Source: a virus. From it: a DNA stretch of 28,880 nt. Under the pieces are notes generated by a model. That model was given only the letters and a program-made list of their open reading frames with translations, was not told the origin of the DNA and did no database searches. Positions 7,277 through 20,976 of this stretch are shown here, piece by piece. The stretch's first letter is position 1. The number at the start of each line of letters is the position of its first letter. Where the stretch lies: IMG/VR virus record IMGVR_UViG_3300044638_004168, positions 1-28,880 of that record, one strand, 5' to 3'. Position numbers and translations under genes: made by a program.

Positions 7277-7981
7277 TCAATAGCTCATGAAGAGGTCGCC
7301 CCCCTCGATGTAGAAGGTGTAGGTGGGTGCTGGCGTCCCGGCTGGGCCTTGGGGACCGACTGGCCCCGCTGGGCCTGTTTGCCCGACGCTTCCGGCGGGT
7401 CCGGCGCTTCCGGTATCGCCTTTGATACCTTGGGGTCCGGCTGGGCCTGTGCTTCCTGCGGGCCCTGCGGGTCCGACTGGGCCTACGGGGCCTGCGCTTC
7501 CGTTCGCCCCTTGCGGCCCGACGAGGCTGGCAAGCCATTGGCTCTGGCTGCCGCTGAAACCACTCTCGACGGCGACTTCGTAGGCGCTCTTGCCAGAGAT
7601 CGGCACGCCGGGTTGGGTGGTGTGAATTTCCGTGCTGGAGGTCGTCTTGCGGGTCACATCACGCACGAGCTTGATGCCGCCCAGCGCGACTGTGCGCACC
7701 TCTCCGGTGCTGAGGCTTTGCGCTTGGATGTCCCAGATGTAGGTGGCCGACGGAAGAGCCAGCGTGTCGGCCGGCACGATCTCGACCTCGGCGGTGTTGC
7801 CAGTGATCGAGATGCCCGCGCCGGTGAGCTTCTGGAAGACTGCCGCGTCGTCTGAATCCTGCGCGCTGCGCTTGGCCGTGAAGATCAGCGACCACGCCTC
7901 GCCGGGCGTGAAGTCATCGCCAGCCCATGTGAGCGGTATCTCGTGGCTCGTGCTGTCGCCGATGTACTGGGTGAGCTGCAT
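7277..7981 (-). CDS. Collagen-like tail/baseplate protein with BppU-like N-terminal domain
   Basis: About 234 residues from the ATG at 7981; a TTG at 8002 would add seven residues but lies within the boundary word TTGACACC and is less likely. The N-terminal ~110 residues ([41 protein letters not shown]) look like the beta-sandwich attachment domain of baseplate upper proteins. A linker [13 protein letters not shown]...WLASL, frequent before phage collagen repeats, precedes about twenty uninterrupted Gly-X-Y triplets. A short C-terminal strand ([14 protein letters not shown]) ends it. The likely role is a trimeric collagen-like stalk anchored to the tail tip. Confidence 0.8.
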
Positions 7982-8008
7982 CTTCGATGTGGCGGGTGTC
8001 AACGGGTC

Positions 8009-10633
8009 TTAACCGAGCAGGGATTTCTTGATCACCACTTCCATGGTGTCGCTGCGGATGTCTGAAATGCTCTCACCTGTGCCGGTGGTGACCTTGAGTT
8101 CGCAGAGGCCCTTGATGTCGGTCTCGTTGCTGGCTTCGACCTTGCCTTCGGCATCGATTTGCTCGACGGCATCTTCGTCGTAGTAGTCGTCGATGAGTGC
8201 GCCAAACTCGGCGGCGACTCCAACGACGCGCATCTTGTAGTAAGCGTTGGATCCGGTGCCGACCTTGGTGAAGGCGTCGCCTTCCATGAGCAGAGGACCA
8301 CCGATCTTGGAGGCGACTCCGAAACGCATGGCGGTGGGCTCTGGATCGACGGACTTGGTGCCTTTGGTAAAGCGGAGGTTAAGCCAGAGGATTTCGCCGC
8401 TCTTGATGAGAAGGGGCTTGTCCTTGGTCGAGTTCACCACAGTCGCGCCGGATGCGATGGTTGCTTCGGCTTTCGGCGGGGTGAGGCTCAATTCACGGGT
8501 TTGGAGATCCATGAAGACATCGACGCCTCCATTTTCTAAGAACACCGGTGGTGGGGTTGGCGCGGTGGAGGCGGCGGCCACATTCATGCGCAGGGTCTTG
8601 GCCGTGCCAGTGCCGACATTATTGGTGGCGGTGAGAGTCAATAGGTAGATGCCAGCAGCCGTTGGCGTACCAGAAATGAGGCCGCTGTTGTTGATCGTGA
8701 GACCTGCGGGGAGACCAGTCGCCGTGAATGACTCAGGATCATTGGTGGCTCGGATCTGGAGGTTGGTGGCGGTGCCGACCTGTGTTCCAGAGGAGAGCAC
8801 ATAAGCCTGGCCGTTCCATGGTGCATCCAGCCCGGTTAAGTCGATTTCTGAACGGCCTTTCTCGACGGTGATGGTGATGGTCTTTTCTTCGTCGATGAGT
8901 GGTTCGTTCCAATCGGTGCGATAGGTGAGCTTGATGGTCACTTCGTATTCGCCATAGATATTTGGAGTGCCTGTGATTTGATTGCCATTAACAAAGCTCA
9001 TACCGGGCGGCGGGTTTTCGACATGCCATTGGGCCGAGTTCACATTCTGCCTAGCCATCAAGTAAATCGAACGCGATTCAAACGCGCCGATCGTCATGTC
9101 GGAATTGGCGATAATCGAGGTAAAGACTGGATCAAGCGAGGTGGGGGCTTCCTTTACGATAAAAGGCACCGTGAGATAAGTGGTGCCTTCGACTTGGTAC
9201 AAATTCCCAGATGCGGGAATTGGGTTGTAAAGAGTGAAATCGGAAAGCTCGATTTTGATCAGCGCGTTTTGCGTTCCGGTTTCTGTTGGTGAGCCGATGA
9301 TGTTCGCGGTTTCGACTAGGTTACCGTCGAAGGATAAACCATCGGGCATCGAGACGCTTGTGAATCGGATGTGATTGGAGTATCGGGTGAATGAGTCTTT
9401 GAGTACTGGGAAGGGCAGCGTCGAGTTGGCGAGCGGCGAACCGTTGCCGAGTTGCCCGAACGAGTCCGATCCCCATGTGAAAAGGTTGCCATCACTGGTA
9501 ATGACTGACGAGTGGTAGCCGCCTGCCTCGACAGCGATCGGTGTTTTGCCATTGAGGTGACCGCCAGCAAACACCTTTACTGCGGTGGTTGAGTTGAGCG
9601 TAGTGCCGTTTCCAAGTTGGCCGTTGGCATTGCGCCCGACCGCTGCGACTGTGCCATCAGAACACAAGAACAAGGTGTGCTCCATGCCCACTGATACATC
9701 CGTGATCGTCTTGCCGGCCAAGGCTCCCGTCATGCTGACCGCTGCCCATGTCGTTTGGCCGATTGCATTGCCATTGCCGAGCTTGCCATAGGTATTAGCT
9801 CCAAGTCCGGCGATGGTGCCATCCGTGCAGATAGCAAAGATGCGATCGATACCCCCGACAAGGCGGCTCACGGCCTTACCTGTCAGTGCGCCATTCAGAG
9901 TGACGCTTGAAAAATTATCGAGATGGGAATTGATCCTAAAGATTGTGCCGTCTGAGCATAGCGCATAAACAGCCAAGCCAGATCCTTCCAGTTGGGTGAT
10001 GGTTTTCCCAGATAACGGGGCAACCTGCGCGGCTTGAAAAGCTATTGTGGTTGCGCTCCCCTGTTTATAAAAAAGACCAGATTCTTTTCTGAATACTTGG
10101 TAATAATTATACTGACTAGTTCCCGTAACAGCGAAATCAAGAACACCACTAGTAAGAAGCACGGGGGTATTATAGCTATTATTACCTAAATCCCCCCAGC
10201 GAAAAAAATCTCCATCGTCACTTAAAGCATAGCTTGAATTGTTCACAGTTTCGTATGCGCATTTAATTCTGGTGATGTTCTTTAGGCTTAAAGCGCCACT
10301 TGTGAAAACCTCAACAGGGGTGTTTGAGTCGGTTTGACTGTTGTTACCTAGCTGCCCGTGGTTATTTCTACCGAACGCCGCCAGCGAACCATCCGTATTT
10401 AATACGATGGTGTGATTCTCCCCTGAAGATATTTTAGAAACACTCTTGCCTGCTAATACTCCGCCATCTTGTGAGATTGGATTCCCTGTGTATGGATAGG
10501 TCAGCGACTCTCCTGTGATCCTTTTGAGATCCACAAAATCAGCCAGATCGATCTCGGCGGCTTGGTCTTTGTAAATTGAGATCCCATCGGTGATCCCAGT
10601 CTTCAATTTGGCGGTGATAAGGTCACTTGGCAT
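8009..10633 (-). CDS. Large tail protein: RCC1-type seven-blade propeller plus putative-Ig repeats
   Basis: 874 residues. After a ~55-residue N-terminus come seven blade-like repeats (residues about 58-420). Good copies read VSKISSGENHTIVLNTDGSL...AFGRNNHGQLGN, ISV/VGMEHTLFLCSDGTV...GRNANGQLGNG and VEAGGYHSSVITSDGNLFTW...DSFGQLGNG; blades two to four are more diverged. This is the RCC1/BNR-like pattern of a seven-blade beta propeller. Then follow two or three putative-Ig (He_PIG) modules (GMSFVNGNQITGTP, GLPAGLTINNSGLISGTPTA). The last ~170 residues resemble the N-terminus of the 759-residue neighbour. It is probably a host-recognition or tail-tip protein. The propeller-coding DNA near 9950-10450 is AT-richer than the rest. 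Confidence 0.8.
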   Translation of the reverse strand: MPSDLITAKLKTGITDGISIYKDQAAEIDLADFVDLKRITGESLTYPYTGNPISQDGGVLAGKSVSKISSGENHTIVLNTDGSLAAFGRNNHGQLGNNSQTDSNTPVEVFTSGALSLKNITRIKCAYETVNNSSYALSDDGDFFRWGDLGNNSYNTPVLLTSGVLDFAVTGTSQYNYYQVFRKESGLFYKQGSATTIAFQAAQVAPLSGKTITQLEGSGLAVYALCSDGTIFRINSHLDNFSSVTLNGALTGKAVSRLVGGIDRIFAICTDGTIAGLGANTYGKLGNGNAIGQTTWAAVSMTGALAGKTITDVSVGMEHTLFLCSDGTVAAVGRNANGQLGNGTTLNSTTAVKVFAGGHLNGKTPIAVEAGGYHSSVITSDGNLFTWGSDSFGQLGNGSPLANSTLPFPVLKDSFTRYSNHIRFTSVSMPDGLSFDGNLVETANIIGSPTETGTQNALIKIELSDFTLYNPIPASGNLYQVEGTTYLTVPFIVKEAPTSLDPVFTSIIANSDMTIGAFESRSIYLMARQNVNSAQWHVENPPPGMSFVNGNQITGTPNIYGEYEVTIKLTYRTDWNEPLIDEEKTITITVEKGRSEIDLTGLDAPWNGQAYVLSSGTQVGTATNLQIRATNDPESFTATGLPAGLTINNSGLISGTPTAAGIYLLTLTATNNVGTGTAKTLRMNVAAASTAPTPPPVFLENGGVDVFMDLQTRELSLTPPKAEATIASGATVVNSTKDKPLLIKSGEILWLNLRFTKGTKSVDPEPTAMRFGVASKIGGPLLMEGDAFTKVGTGSNAYYKMRVVGVAAEFGALIDDYYDEDAVEQIDAEGKVEASNETDIKGLCELKVTTGTGESISDIRSDTMEVVIKKSLLG

Positions 10634-16037: not shown

Positions 16038-18470
16038 TCAGCCTCCAAAAACAGGGATGTAAACATCGGGCGGACTCTTCTTGGGCATGGTGTTCTCCTT
16101 AATAGCCCTCAGCAGTGATGTCTGGCGTCGGTTTTCATCCAATAATCCATCATTGGCTGCGCGGCCCATGAAGACATTGGTCGCCTTGGCGACGCTGCCG
16201 AGTTGGGCGACGGCTCCACCGGAATCCACGGGGGGCTTATTTTTGTTTTTCTCGCGTGCCTTGTCGGCCTCATCTGCGGCAGCACGGGCATCGACCATCT
16301 TGGCGGCGGTGTCTTTAACGCCCACTCCTTTAAGTTTATCCATCAGGGCCTGCGCTTTCTGCATTTCCTTGGTGCCGATGAGATCCATGACGACTTGGAT
16401 ATTTTTGCTTTGGAGGGCATCGACGAGTTTTTGAGCCTTCTCCATATCCTTGGTGCCGAGCACCTCGATCGCGGCTTGGATCTGTGCGCCTTTATCGGTC
16501 ATGCCCAGCGCTTCGAGTCGAGTGATTTCCTCGCGGATTGCCTGCTCGCGTTGGAGCGCATCGATCCGCTTTTGATCACCAGCGATTCTTGCTCGCACCA
16601 GATCGACTTCGAGTCGGTATTGGGCACGGCTTGATTCTAAATCTTCGTTTTGAGATGGGCTTTTCTTGAAATTACTTATTTTCTCTTTGAGCTTTATTGC
16701 ATCCAAAAGCTCTTTTGGTGTGCGCAAATTTGTCGATTTTAGGACAATATCTACTTCTTTGCTGGATGGCATTGAAGCGATGGCATCCTTCAAGTCGTAC
16801 AAGCCATTAAATCCAACTGTATTTATGGCGACATCCAAATTTTTACCTTCGGCTGCTTTTATAACTCTATTGGCCGCTTCAATATCCGGGGTTCCGATGA
16901 CCTTTATGGATATTTCATTGGCTTGTGCTGTCAGTTTATCGATGGATTGCTGTGCTTTCTGGACATCCTGCGTGCCAAGAACTTCCATGGCCGCTTGGAC
17001 ACTCTTGCCTTGAAGGGTGTTCAGAAGCTGCTGGGCTTTCTGGACATCCTGCGTGCCAAGGACCTCCATGGACACCTCCTTTGACTGCCCATTTATTGAA
17101 TCAATCCTTTCCTTGGCCTCTTTGAAGTTTTTAATATCAAATGAGGTGATTGATGGCCCATCTCCCGTTTCAGGTTGGGTTGGATGAATAGATTTTCTTT
17201 TGGTCTCTGCGGCGGCTCTGTCTCTTGAAAAGAAATCAGACGGCGGTTGCTTTTGCGGTGTGTTAGCGACCGAGATTTCTTTGAAGAGGCTGCGGATTCT
17301 TTCGATGCCGTCACCGATCTGGTTTTCCATGATCGGGCCTTTAGCATTTGAAACCTCCTCGCTTAACTTGCCTTCATTGAAAAACGGATCGTTGCCAAAA
17401 GTGTCTTGGCTCCACTTGGACATCTTGCGGATGGGGTTGTAGTCCTCCATCAATCGAAGAGTGCTTTCCGTGGCTTCCGCAAAACCGCGCGTCAGAGCCA
17501 CCTTAAATCCAAGCATGACAGACTCACCAATGAGTTCGCCGATCTTGACCATGCGGCTAGTGTCGCCTTGAAGTGCCTCAGCCAGCGCGGCGGTGATCGT
17601 GTACCCAACTTCGCGGATCTTAGGAGCCAGTTTGCTGAACGAGTCGATGATCTGCGGCGTCATCTTTGCCACATCGGCAGCGAATTTTGAAAAGACCTCC
17701 GCCATCGGCTTGCCGATCTCTTCGAGCATCTGGCCGACGGACACCTTGATCCTCGACATGCCGCTTGCGGTCGCGTTGGCGGATCCACCGACCTGTGTTT
17801 CGATGGCTTTGAGTACCTGGTCGAATGCCTTGGCGCGGTTGCCGGTTTGAGCAAACTCCTGTGAGATGGCTTTGATCTGCGAGGTGGTCAGTGCGCCGGT
17901 GCGCTTCAGCGCGGCCAGTCCCTTTTCTGGATCCTCAAGTGCCTTGCCGAGTTGCACGGCGTAATTCGAGGCGTCACCCCCGAAGACGGCCGCCATGTCG
18001 AGCGATGCTTGTGTGGCGCGATCGAAGGCACCTCCGGTGGTGCCGGCGGTTTTGGCAAGTTCCTTGAAGGTCGCGAGCTTCGCCTGCGACGCCATGATGA
18101 GGTCACCATCGACGCCTGTGGCGAGCTCGGTCGCATCGGCCATTTTGATGAGGCGATCGGCCACATCATCGGATTGATCTCCGAAGAGACCCATGGTTTT
18201 GACGACGCTCTTGATGCGGTTCTCCGCCTGAAGCCCTTCCTCACCGATGCTGATCAGCTTGTACGCGATGCCACCGACAGCGGCGGCTGCACCTGTGGCG
18301 GCGATACCGATCGCTCCGACGCTTTTTGCGACGCCTGAAAAGGCCGAGCTGATGCCCGAACCGATCGACGACATCGAGGTCTTGAGTGACAGAGCGGACT
18401 TTTTCGACCGATCAATCCCGCGAACAAAGTCCGAGGCGTTGAGTGTGAGTTTGGTGGTGATCCCTGCCAT
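16038..18470 (-). CDS. Tail tape measure protein with ~27-residue repeats
   Basis: An 810-residue protein, typical in length and position for a tape measure that sets tail length and may be ejected with DNA. The N-terminus (LTLNASDFVRGIDRSKKSAL) and a hydrophobic stretch near residues 49-74 are standard. Residues about 75-290 are helical. From about 455 to 600 and 660 to 730 repeats of the type MEVLGTQDVQKAQQLLNTLQ occur (variants EVLGTKDMEKAQKLVDAL, KVIGTPDIEAANRVIKA). The best two copies are 81 bp apart. The repeat-coding DNA around 16640-17120 is more AT-rich. By the usual ~0.15 nm per residue the tail would be near 120 nm. Confidence 0.9.
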   Translation of the reverse strand: MAGITTKLTLNASDFVRGIDRSKKSALSLKTSMSSIGSGISSAFSGVAKSVGAIGIAATGAAAAVGGIAYKLISIGEEGLQAENRIKSVVKTMGLFGDQSDDVADRLIKMADATELATGVDGDLIMASQAKLATFKELAKTAGTTGGAFDRATQASLDMAAVFGGDASNYAVQLGKALEDPEKGLAALKRTGALTTSQIKAISQEFAQTGNRAKAFDQVLKAIETQVGGSANATASGMSRIKVSVGQMLEEIGKPMAEVFSKFAADVAKMTPQIIDSFSKLAPKIREVGYTITAALAEALQGDTSRMVKIGELIGESVMLGFKVALTRGFAEATESTLRLMEDYNPIRKMSKWSQDTFGNDPFFNEGKLSEEVSNAKGPIMENQIGDGIERIRSLFKEISVANTPQKQPPSDFFSRDRAAAETKRKSIHPTQPETGDGPSITSFDIKNFKEAKERIDSINGQSKEVSMEVLGTQDVQKAQQLLNTLQGKSVQAAMEVLGTQDVQKAQQSIDKLTAQANEISIKVIGTPDIEAANRVIKAAEGKNLDVAINTVGFNGLYDLKDAIASMPSSKEVDIVLKSTNLRTPKELLDAIKLKEKISNFKKSPSQNEDLESSRAQYRLEVDLVRARIAGDQKRIDALQREQAIREEITRLEALGMTDKGAQIQAAIEVLGTKDMEKAQKLVDALQSKNIQVVMDLIGTKEMQKAQALMDKLKGVGVKDTAAKMVDARAAADEADKAREKNKNKPPVDSGGAVAQLGSVAKATNVFMGRAANDGLLDENRRQTSLLRAIKENTMPKKSPPDVYIPVFGG

Positions 18471-18494: not shown

Positions 18495-19157
18495 TCATGA
18501 TATTTTTTTTGCCGCTTTCTTGAGGAAATTGTTCACCCGGTTCTGCATGGCACGGGTTTGCCAGCGCACGGCGTACTGCATACGGCGGTCGACCCCATCC
18601 ATATTGCTGGCCCAGTTGACTAAGTTGCTGATCGTTGCCGTGATTGTAGTGGAGGTTGACTTAATATCCGCATCGCCTGGCGCGTCATGCCTACCGATCC
18701 AGCTTGGCACTCGGATCTTGCCAAGTCTGCGGGCGGCGGATGCCCAGCCGGACGCGAGGTAGCCTACGCCTTTCTGTTTCACCTTGATGAAGTTGGTGAT
18801 CATCGAGCGGGCCGCGCGAGTTGGCTTCACTGCCCGCTTGATGCGGATGTTTCCACCACGGCGCTTGGTGTGCATGATGTTGGCCATTTCCGACATACTG
18901 CTGACCTCCGAGTTCTTCGGGGTGGATCCGATGAAGACATTGCGCACATCGCTGGCAATCGCGGCCTCCCCCAGTTTCTTAGCCTTTACTCCGCGCGTCT
19001 TGCCGTTACTCGGAGGCGTGATGTCCATCAGTTTGCGAACCACTCCCCGTGCCTGCTCTTCCATGAGCGCGCGGCCATCGCGTTTAGAGAACTCCCCGAG
19101 CCTTGCGGCCATGGCTTGAAACTGCCGGATGTCAGTCTCGATGTTAGTTCTGGCCAT
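18495..19157 (-). CDS. Hypothetical tail-assembly region protein
   Basis: A 220-residue, strongly basic protein that starts immediately after the GT stop (19158) and precedes the tape measure. N-terminal helices (DIRQFQAMAARLGEFSKRDG, ALMEEQARGVVRKLMDITPP) recall HK97 gp10-like or minor tail proteins, but the match is not firm. The C-terminus is helical and basic (MQYAVRWQTRAMQNRVNNFL). It is probably a minor tail or assembly protein. Confidence 0.6.
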   Translation of the reverse strand: MARTNIETDIRQFQAMAARLGEFSKRDGRALMEEQARGVVRKLMDITPPSNGKTRGVKAKKLGEAAIASDVRNVFIGSTPKNSEVSSMSEMANIMHTKRRGGNIRIKRAVKPTRAARSMITNFIKVKQKGVGYLASGWASAARRLGKIRVPSWIGRHDAPGDADIKSTSTTITATISNLVNWASNMDGVDRRMQYAVRWQTRAMQNRVNNFLKKAAKKIS

Positions 19158-19397
19158 TTATTCAGGGGAAGAGTCAACCAGTTCATCGATGTAGCTGAGC
19201 AGAGAGTCTGGCACCATTTCCTCGAGTTTCGCGGCTGTGACTGGCTCAAGCGTCCAGAGGTTTGCCGCCTGCAATGCACAGTGGTAGTATTGGAGGGCTC
19301 GCGACAGCGGTAGCTCCCAGAGGATGTGCTTCTCGCTCCATCCGGTGTCCTTGGCGATCGCGTAGACCACGCTCGCGCACCAACCAGGGTTTAGGAC
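19158..19397 (-). CDS. GT frameshift extension (T part of tail assembly chaperone)
   Basis: This is the -1 frame continuation reached from the GGGAAAG slippery site. After the slip, translation would read VLNPGWCAS, then a 70-residue helical domain (ILWELPLSRALQYYHCALQA, KLEEMVPDSLLSYIDEL). An independent start is only possible at GTG 19370, which lacks a Shine-Dalgarno, so expression as a fusion is favoured. The predicted G-T fusion is 213 residues. In lambda the T part recruits tail tube protein while the G part coats the tape measure. It is adjacent to the tape-measure module, as expected. Confidence 0.8.
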   Translation of the reverse strand, partial: VLNPGWCASVVYAIAKDTGWSEKHILWELPLSRALQYYHCALQAANLWTLEPVTAAKLEEMVPDSLLSYIDELVDSSPE

Positions 19398-19798
19398 TTT
19401 CCCGGCGGTGTCTCTTCCTCAGATTTGTACTTCGACTCGACGCGCACATCATTGGCGGCGACTTGCGAGCCGATGCGGTTGATCTCTTCGAGCATCTCAG
19501 GGAAGTTGGAGAAGTCGATACTGAGCGAGTAACGGAGAACGGCCTGCCCTGCGGTGTTGGCAGATACGGCTGAGACCACCTCGTCCAGCGGTGCTGACTG
19601 CATCCAGACGAATGTGGCGATCTGGCGCTGGCGCTCGATCTCGCTGAGGTCGGAGTCGTCGCCGGTAAACATAGTGAGCCCGAGTAGATAGGCGATCTGG
19701 AGCGATCCGTAGGAGAATGATCGCAGCTTCATGCCGCCGATCGTTTTGCTGTCGCCTTCGATCATGCCGGCGGCGATGAGTTGATCTCGTGATTCCAT
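19391..19798 (-). CDS. Tail assembly chaperone, G-like
   Basis: A 135-residue acidic helical protein (IGGMKLRSFSYGSLQIAYLL, ERQRQIATFVWMQSAPLDEV) ending ...TPPGKS. Tail chaperones are usually poorly conserved in sequence, so the assignment rests on position between the tail-tube genes and the tape measure, on size, and on the slippery heptamer three codons from its end. Most ribosomes would stop at TAA (19391-19393); a minority would shift into the T frame. Confidence 0.8.
   Translation of the reverse strand: MESRDQLIAAGMIEGDSKTIGGMKLRSFSYGSLQIAYLLGLTMFTGDDSDLSEIERQRQIATFVWMQSAPLDEVVSAVSANTAGQAVLRYSLSIDFSNFPEMLEEINRIGSQVAANDVRVESKYKSEEETPPGKS
19397..19403 (-). promoter_or_regulatory. Programmed -1 frameshift slippery site GGGAAAG
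   Basis: On the coding strand the G-frame codons are ccG GGA AAG tcc taa, so the heptamer is G GGA AAG in exactly the X XXY YYZ phase. It is the same heptamer used by lambda gene G. After slipping -1 the frame GGG AAA GTC CTA is open through 19158. Confidence 0.85.
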
Positions 19799-20325: not shown

Positions 20326-20646
20326 TTATGCCCCTGGGTATGCGACTCCTGTGACCTCAAACGAATTAAAGTCATCGTTGGTCTGGGAATTTTTTACCGA
20401 GGTGATGATTACTTTCCCATCTACTTCACTTGGAACAAGATTACCTCCACTAGATCCCGCTTCAACCTCAGTTGAGCCGCGCCCTTTGACTGTAAATTCA
20501 AACTTGGGGTCGAAAGCCTTTGCCGCGCCAAATCCACCTTCGGTGGACATGATCATCTTGGTCTCAAAGTTCTTGCTGACCTCAACGCTTTCAATGAACT
20601 GGGCGGTGACTTGTTTTACTCCAATCTCTAGGTTAGTTGCGGACAT
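20326..20646 (-). CDS. Tail-tube-like protein, paralogue B
   Basis: A 106-residue protein homologous to its 105-residue neighbour. The shared pattern covers FEFTVKGRGSTE (neighbour RTITVSGKGTTN), a Gly-rich turn, and IITSVKNSQTNDDFNSFEV (neighbour ISSVKITESNDDFPEFEI). The small beta-sandwich size, place before the chaperone pair and expected high abundance suit a tail-tube or tube-like protein. Tube proteins are usually longer, so one of the two copies could be a decoration or terminator-like version. Confidence 0.65.
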   Translation of the reverse strand: MSATNLEIGVKQVTAQFIESVEVSKNFETKMIMSTEGGFGAAKAFDPKFEFTVKGRGSTEVEAGSSGGNLVPSEVDGKVIITSVKNSQTNDDFNSFEVTGVAYPGA

Positions 20647-20658
20647 AGCTTTAGATGA

Positions 20659-20976
20659 TTAGTTGATATCTTCGTAAGTAGTTGCTTGAATCTCAAATTC
20701 AGGGAAATCGTCGTTGCTTTCGGTTATTTTGACCGAGCTGATCATCGCTACGTTTAAAGCAGCATCTCCTCCGGTAACCTGAGCAAAGTTAGTAGTTCCC
20801 TTTCCAGAGACCGTAATCGTTCTGGTGATCAGCTTCTTGGGTTCGGCTTGCACGGTGACTCCTTGCTGGTTGCGAAGGGTGACGACATCTACCGTTGAAT
20901 CCTCACTGGATTGACCTATAAACCCATCATCTGGGGAAAGTCCTCTCGTATTGGTAACTCCGAATGTAGCAGCCAT
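20659..20976 (-). CDS. Tail-tube-like protein, paralogue A
   Basis: A 105-residue protein and paralogue of the following gene (see the shared motifs there), 12 bases apart. It begins MAATFGVTNTRGLSPDDGFI and has a middle LRNQQGVTVQAEPKKLIT. The ATG is preceded by the boundary word TTGACACC and a small hairpin (20980-20995) that ends three bases before the start, with no Shine-Dalgarno. It may be the major tail protein, but which copy builds the tube cannot be told. Confidence 0.65.
   Translation of the reverse strand: MAATFGVTNTRGLSPDDGFIGQSSEDSTVDVVTLRNQQGVTVQAEPKKLITRTITVSGKGTTNFAQVTGGDAALNVAMISSVKITESNDDFPEFEIQATTYEDIN

Follow-up and report, generated by a model that had tools for sequence, protein, structure and literature searches.

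The closest described system is the G/GT gene pair of phage lambda, in which a -1 shift at the heptamer G_GGA_AAG near the end of the first open reading frame (ORF) yields a short and a fused product, both encoded upstream of the tape measure gene (mechanism as described in PMC5009743). Tail chaperone frameshifts are also known from other siphoviruses (Xu et al. 2004, as cited in PMC5009743), and in an HK97-like cluster frameshifting was measured at 6-7% (PMC3711429). Experiments in E. coli found heptamers ending in AAG to be the most shift-prone and re-pairing from AAC to AAA to be less tolerated (PMC4066793); G_GGA_AAG itself ranks with the most shift-prone heptamers there (PMC4066793; PMC5009743).

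The locus analyzed here lies on the minus strand of a 28,880-nt viral sequence, IMG/VR record IMGVR_UViG_3300044638_004168, the whole of which is referred to as the window. Heptamer and phase are identical to those of lambda G/GT, and as in lambda, the -1 shift falls late in the first ORF, predicts a short and a fused product, and precedes the tape measure gene. Gene order, -1 direction, and low similarity between lineages are likewise shared with the chaperone frameshifts of HK97-like phages and other siphoviruses. Unlike those chaperones, the window proteins match no tail assembly chaperone family model, and they differ from lambda G/GT in having no detectable sequence similarity to it, in an additional gene preceding the tape measure gene, and in the host phylum and lysine tRNA set of the window's relatives.

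The initial annotation had placed a lambda-type GGGAAAG in the G GGA AAG phase near the end of a 135-residue ORF, with the -1 frame open across the junction into a poorly started second ORF and a predicted fusion of 213 residues; all of this was confirmed. The G-like ORF (19391-19798, minus strand; 135 residues, with conserved relatives in IMG/VR and in Verrucomicrobiota genomes) is the product of standard translation. Its codons at the junction read ACA CCG CCG GGA AAG TCC TAA, placing the slippery heptamer at 19397-19403 and the zero-frame stop TAA (19391-19393) one codon beyond it. Just past a TGA at 19419-19421, the -1 frame opens and stays so as far as the stop at 19158-19160, and since that TGA closes the frame upstream, it can be entered only downstream of it. 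The T-like region in this frame (19158-19397, 79 residues) has no start of its own; the sole nearby start codon, a GTG at 19370, is without a Shine-Dalgarno-like sequence. A -1 shift would join 134 and 79 residues into the predicted G-T fusion (19158-19798), which homologues match end to end. The heptamer count was rejected as evidence, with four copies of GGGAAAG in the window against 4.55 expected. Since the string is not rare, the case rests on its phase, its place, and its conservation.

Conservation was assessed by scanning IMG/VR with T-like profiles and with the fusion and the downstream gene as queries, which recovered well over a hundred loci. Four bacterial contigs in GTDB carried relatives, all named Verrucomicrobia, Akkermansiaceae, or Haloferula, and the window appears to belong to a phage of Verrucomicrobiota bacteria. 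Among cultured phages, tblastn with the window fusion gave no match, and two distant relatives used as queries gave chance-level matches (E 0.6) or none. We compared 82 distinct 300-base junctions, with the register set by alignment of the T-like proteins and not by the heptamer. In the homologous junctions examined, the second ORF was offset by -1 relative to the first, and an in-phase XXXAAAN heptamer was present at exactly the same register in 81 of the 82 (GGGAAAG in 53, CCCAAAC in 17, GGGAAAC in eight, and CCCAAAA in three). The background frequency, taken from upstream positions of the first ORF, was 12 in-phase heptamers at 8,200 positions (0.15%). The remaining junction belongs to a Haloferula sp. 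BvORR071 prophage, whose in-phase A_AAA_AAG lies 18 nt upstream. In nearly all relatives, the zero-frame stop follows the heptamer directly or one codon later. Signal and phase are thus retained while proteins and heptamers change, the point that an alignment of homologues had been proposed to check, and this conservation, together with phase and position, makes the heptamer significant although the string itself is ordinary. More remote relatives in Verrucomicrobiota genomes carry A_AAA_AAG, A_AAA_AAC, C_CCA_AAC, G_GGA_AAC, or G_GGA_AAG near the junction, and one carries none of them. Three further remote T-like copies (L235, L236, and L237) occur in a single Verrucomicrobiota genome, the same one that holds L149 and L232, each with A_AAA_AAG upstream; two of them have a short zero-frame ORF of 28-31 codons and are perhaps decayed.

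The window very probably makes two forms of a tail chaperone by a lambda-type -1 slip at GGGAAAG, as judged from sequence comparison. A second ORF translated independently, whether initiated at the GTG at 19370 or translationally coupled to the stop, would leave the heptamer incidental. Such a GTG does exist, 27 nt into the -1 frame, and coupling is conceivable because the end of the 135-residue ORF lies a short way upstream. Start codons, however, vary in position and presence among the relatives: 17 of 55 representatives have none within the first 25 codons of the second ORF, and none of the 55 has a Shine-Dalgarno-like start for it. Moreover, the -1 frame shows protein-level constraint immediately past the zero-frame stop and upstream of the GTG. 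Within the window's branch, a proline there is kept in 49 of 49 distinct sequences with four different codons, a glycine in 47 of 49 with four, and an alanine in 49 of 49 with three, and residues kept across several codons before the GTG indicate that ribosomes read this stretch in the -1 frame. CCG GGA AAG is itself invariant in all 49 sequences, for which codon usage alone, given P-G-K, predicts about 4%, and in the wider family the heptamer register survives codon and amino-acid changes. The constraint before the GTG, the unconserved starts, and the lack of Shine-Dalgarno-like sites leave no good explanation other than slippage at the heptamer, and independent translation is highly improbable. 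The annotation had also named, as counter-evidence, homologues in which the slippery site is missing and the second ORF is properly started; the comparison was carried out and the frameshift reading came through it. A single gene split by a recent frameshift mutation, or by an error in sequencing, would account for two frames that differ by one base, but more than 80 distinct sequences, drawn from many assemblies with bacterial genomes among them, show the same frame relation, which already refutes this explanation and leaves it a negligible probability.

A programmed frameshift that is real might also serve some other virion assembly factor. No family match was found for either window protein in Pfam, PHROG, or NCBIfam, and relatives of both gave only marginal matches there, to unrelated or unnamed families. 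Profile comparison by hhalign against lambda G and against lambda T returned a probability of about 0.5% each, in agreement with the earlier remark that the proteins do not resemble lambda G or T. AlphaFold models of the two proteins were of moderate confidence (pLDDT 75 and 72); compared with a structure library, they gave no match at E<=0.001, and the best viral matches were unnamed. Homology to lambda G or T by profile, or to solved or predicted folds, was accordingly discarded for want of any significant match. The failure to match any chaperone in family or fold thus fits a non-chaperone role, as does a conserved gene of 220 residues and no known family (18495-19157, minus strand) that separates the T-like frame from the tape measure gene. 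The latter (16038-18470, minus strand) was identified by PHROG tape measure matches (best E 1.5e-10). The pair had been described as lying just before the tape measure gene; it does lie upstream, although the 220-residue gene intervenes. In the relatives examined, the T-like frame is likewise followed by a gene of similar size, and gene order is conserved. Against a non-chaperone role, proteins of about 135 and 79 residues, encoded upstream of a tape measure gene and joined by a -1 shift where the first ORF ends, reproduce the G/GT architecture, and among the structural matches, none of them significant, are the lambda-like GT of phage N15 and some proteins named as tail assembly chaperones. 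A different assembly function therefore seems unlikely, if less so than independent translation of the second ORF. We regard the pair as a tail assembly chaperone by mechanism and position, unrelated in sequence to lambda G and T. The role is assigned by analogy with lambda G/GT, from gene order, size, architecture, and the frameshift itself, and means that the pair works like G/GT, not that it belongs to the lambda protein families.

Under the tail chaperone reading, most ribosomes would stop at the TAA (19393-19391) and release the 135-residue G-like chaperone. A minority would slip back by one base on GGA AAG, with the P and A sites re-pairing on GGG AAA, and would read on to 19158, yielding a G-T fusion of 213 residues. 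On the lambda model, the tape measure protein would be coated by the G part and the tail tube subunit recruited by the T part, at a ratio of G to G-T that the slip rate would determine. Both the slip and its rate are what we infer from these sequences. No tail tube or major tail protein gene was found by family search in the window.

Relatives of the window with a heptamer ending in AAC or AAA share a covarying 9-bp stem-loop that begins 7 nt past the heptamer. In bearers that include L132, L138, and L072, it extends from about 7 to 43 nt past the heptamer. The corresponding site in the window, 19354-19389 on the minus strand, lacks it. Across 24 distinct rows with the stem, 96.3% of cells pair and 29 cells are changed on both sides; none of 500 shuffles reached either the pairing or the double-change value, and sliding the partners by 1-3 columns reduced pairing to 25-42%. 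At the same positions, the GGGAAAG branch shows 45% pairing and no double change. Over 113 distinct 90-base junctions, all 65 of the AAC/AAA type have 7-9 of the nine pairs and all 47 of the AAG type have 3-5, the one remaining junction being that of the Haloferula prophage. A null model that keeps the protein and draws codons at random gave 5.79 +- 0.18 pairs for the AAC/AAA representatives, against 8.51 observed, and 4.77 +- 0.21 for the AAG representatives, against 4.13 observed. Rfam had no family match for the relatives' stem-loop or for the window. Two candidate stimulators in the window itself were rejected: a downstream stem-loop, given a fold z of about 0 and a branch consensus fold of only -2.5 kcal/mol, and an upstream Shine-Dalgarno element, which is unsupported because Shine-Dalgarno-like matches are inconsistent between relatives. 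The stem-loop rule fails at the same position in very remote relatives, so it is claimed for the window's chaperone family only.

In a tree of the fusion proteins, the AAG branch forms one clade (support 100/99), so the change in heptamer and stem was a single event. In the same tree, more than one switch between C and G affected the first triplet of the heptamer, with the stem kept. The stem was likely lost in the window's branch, though the midpoint root of the tree serves for drawing only. On balance, we favor the view that slippery-codon strength and an RNA stimulator are interchangeable within this family: an apparent ancestor with a stem and an A-site codon weak in E. coli (AAC or AAA) would have given rise, once, to the AAG type of the window's branch, the stem being lost and the product ratio presumably kept. 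The strength of AAG and weakness of AAC in E. coli fit such an exchange between motif strength and stimulator. Hosts of the AAG type were considered as possibly lacking tRNA-Lys(CUU), which would make AAG slippery; this was rejected, as the three genomes with close AAG-type relatives contain both tRNA-Lys(CUU) and tRNA-Lys(UUU). E. coli, the setting of the AAG slippage measurements, has a single lysine anticodon, UUU. Since hosts of close AAG-type relatives have both lysine tRNAs, the E. coli rate is not simply transferable and may differ in them.

The frameshift mechanism has long been known from lambda; what is new is the host phylum, by which lambda-type chaperone frameshifting extends to phages of Verrucomicrobiota, and a protein family invisible to current models. 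With neither protein named by family searches, the fusion would probably escape annotation pipelines. The trade-off between codon and stem-loop is the more interesting part, more so than the frameshift itself. The family offers a clean natural comparison, with the same protein pair and slip site, four heptamers, and junctions with and without the stem-loop, and how evolution holds a frameshift ratio constant is directly testable in it.

Some other features of the window were noted in passing. In the translated tape measure protein, a motif like EVLGTQDVQKAQQ is repeated, as seen by eye, several times in the middle of the protein. Two adjacent small genes on the minus strand (20326-20646 and 20659-20976; 106 and 105 residues) have similar C-terminal halves (34% over 56 residues) and are possibly duplicated tail tube or decoration proteins. 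Collagen-like GPAGP repeats occur in a predicted 241-residue ORF (7277-8002, minus strand) that is probably part of a tail fibre.
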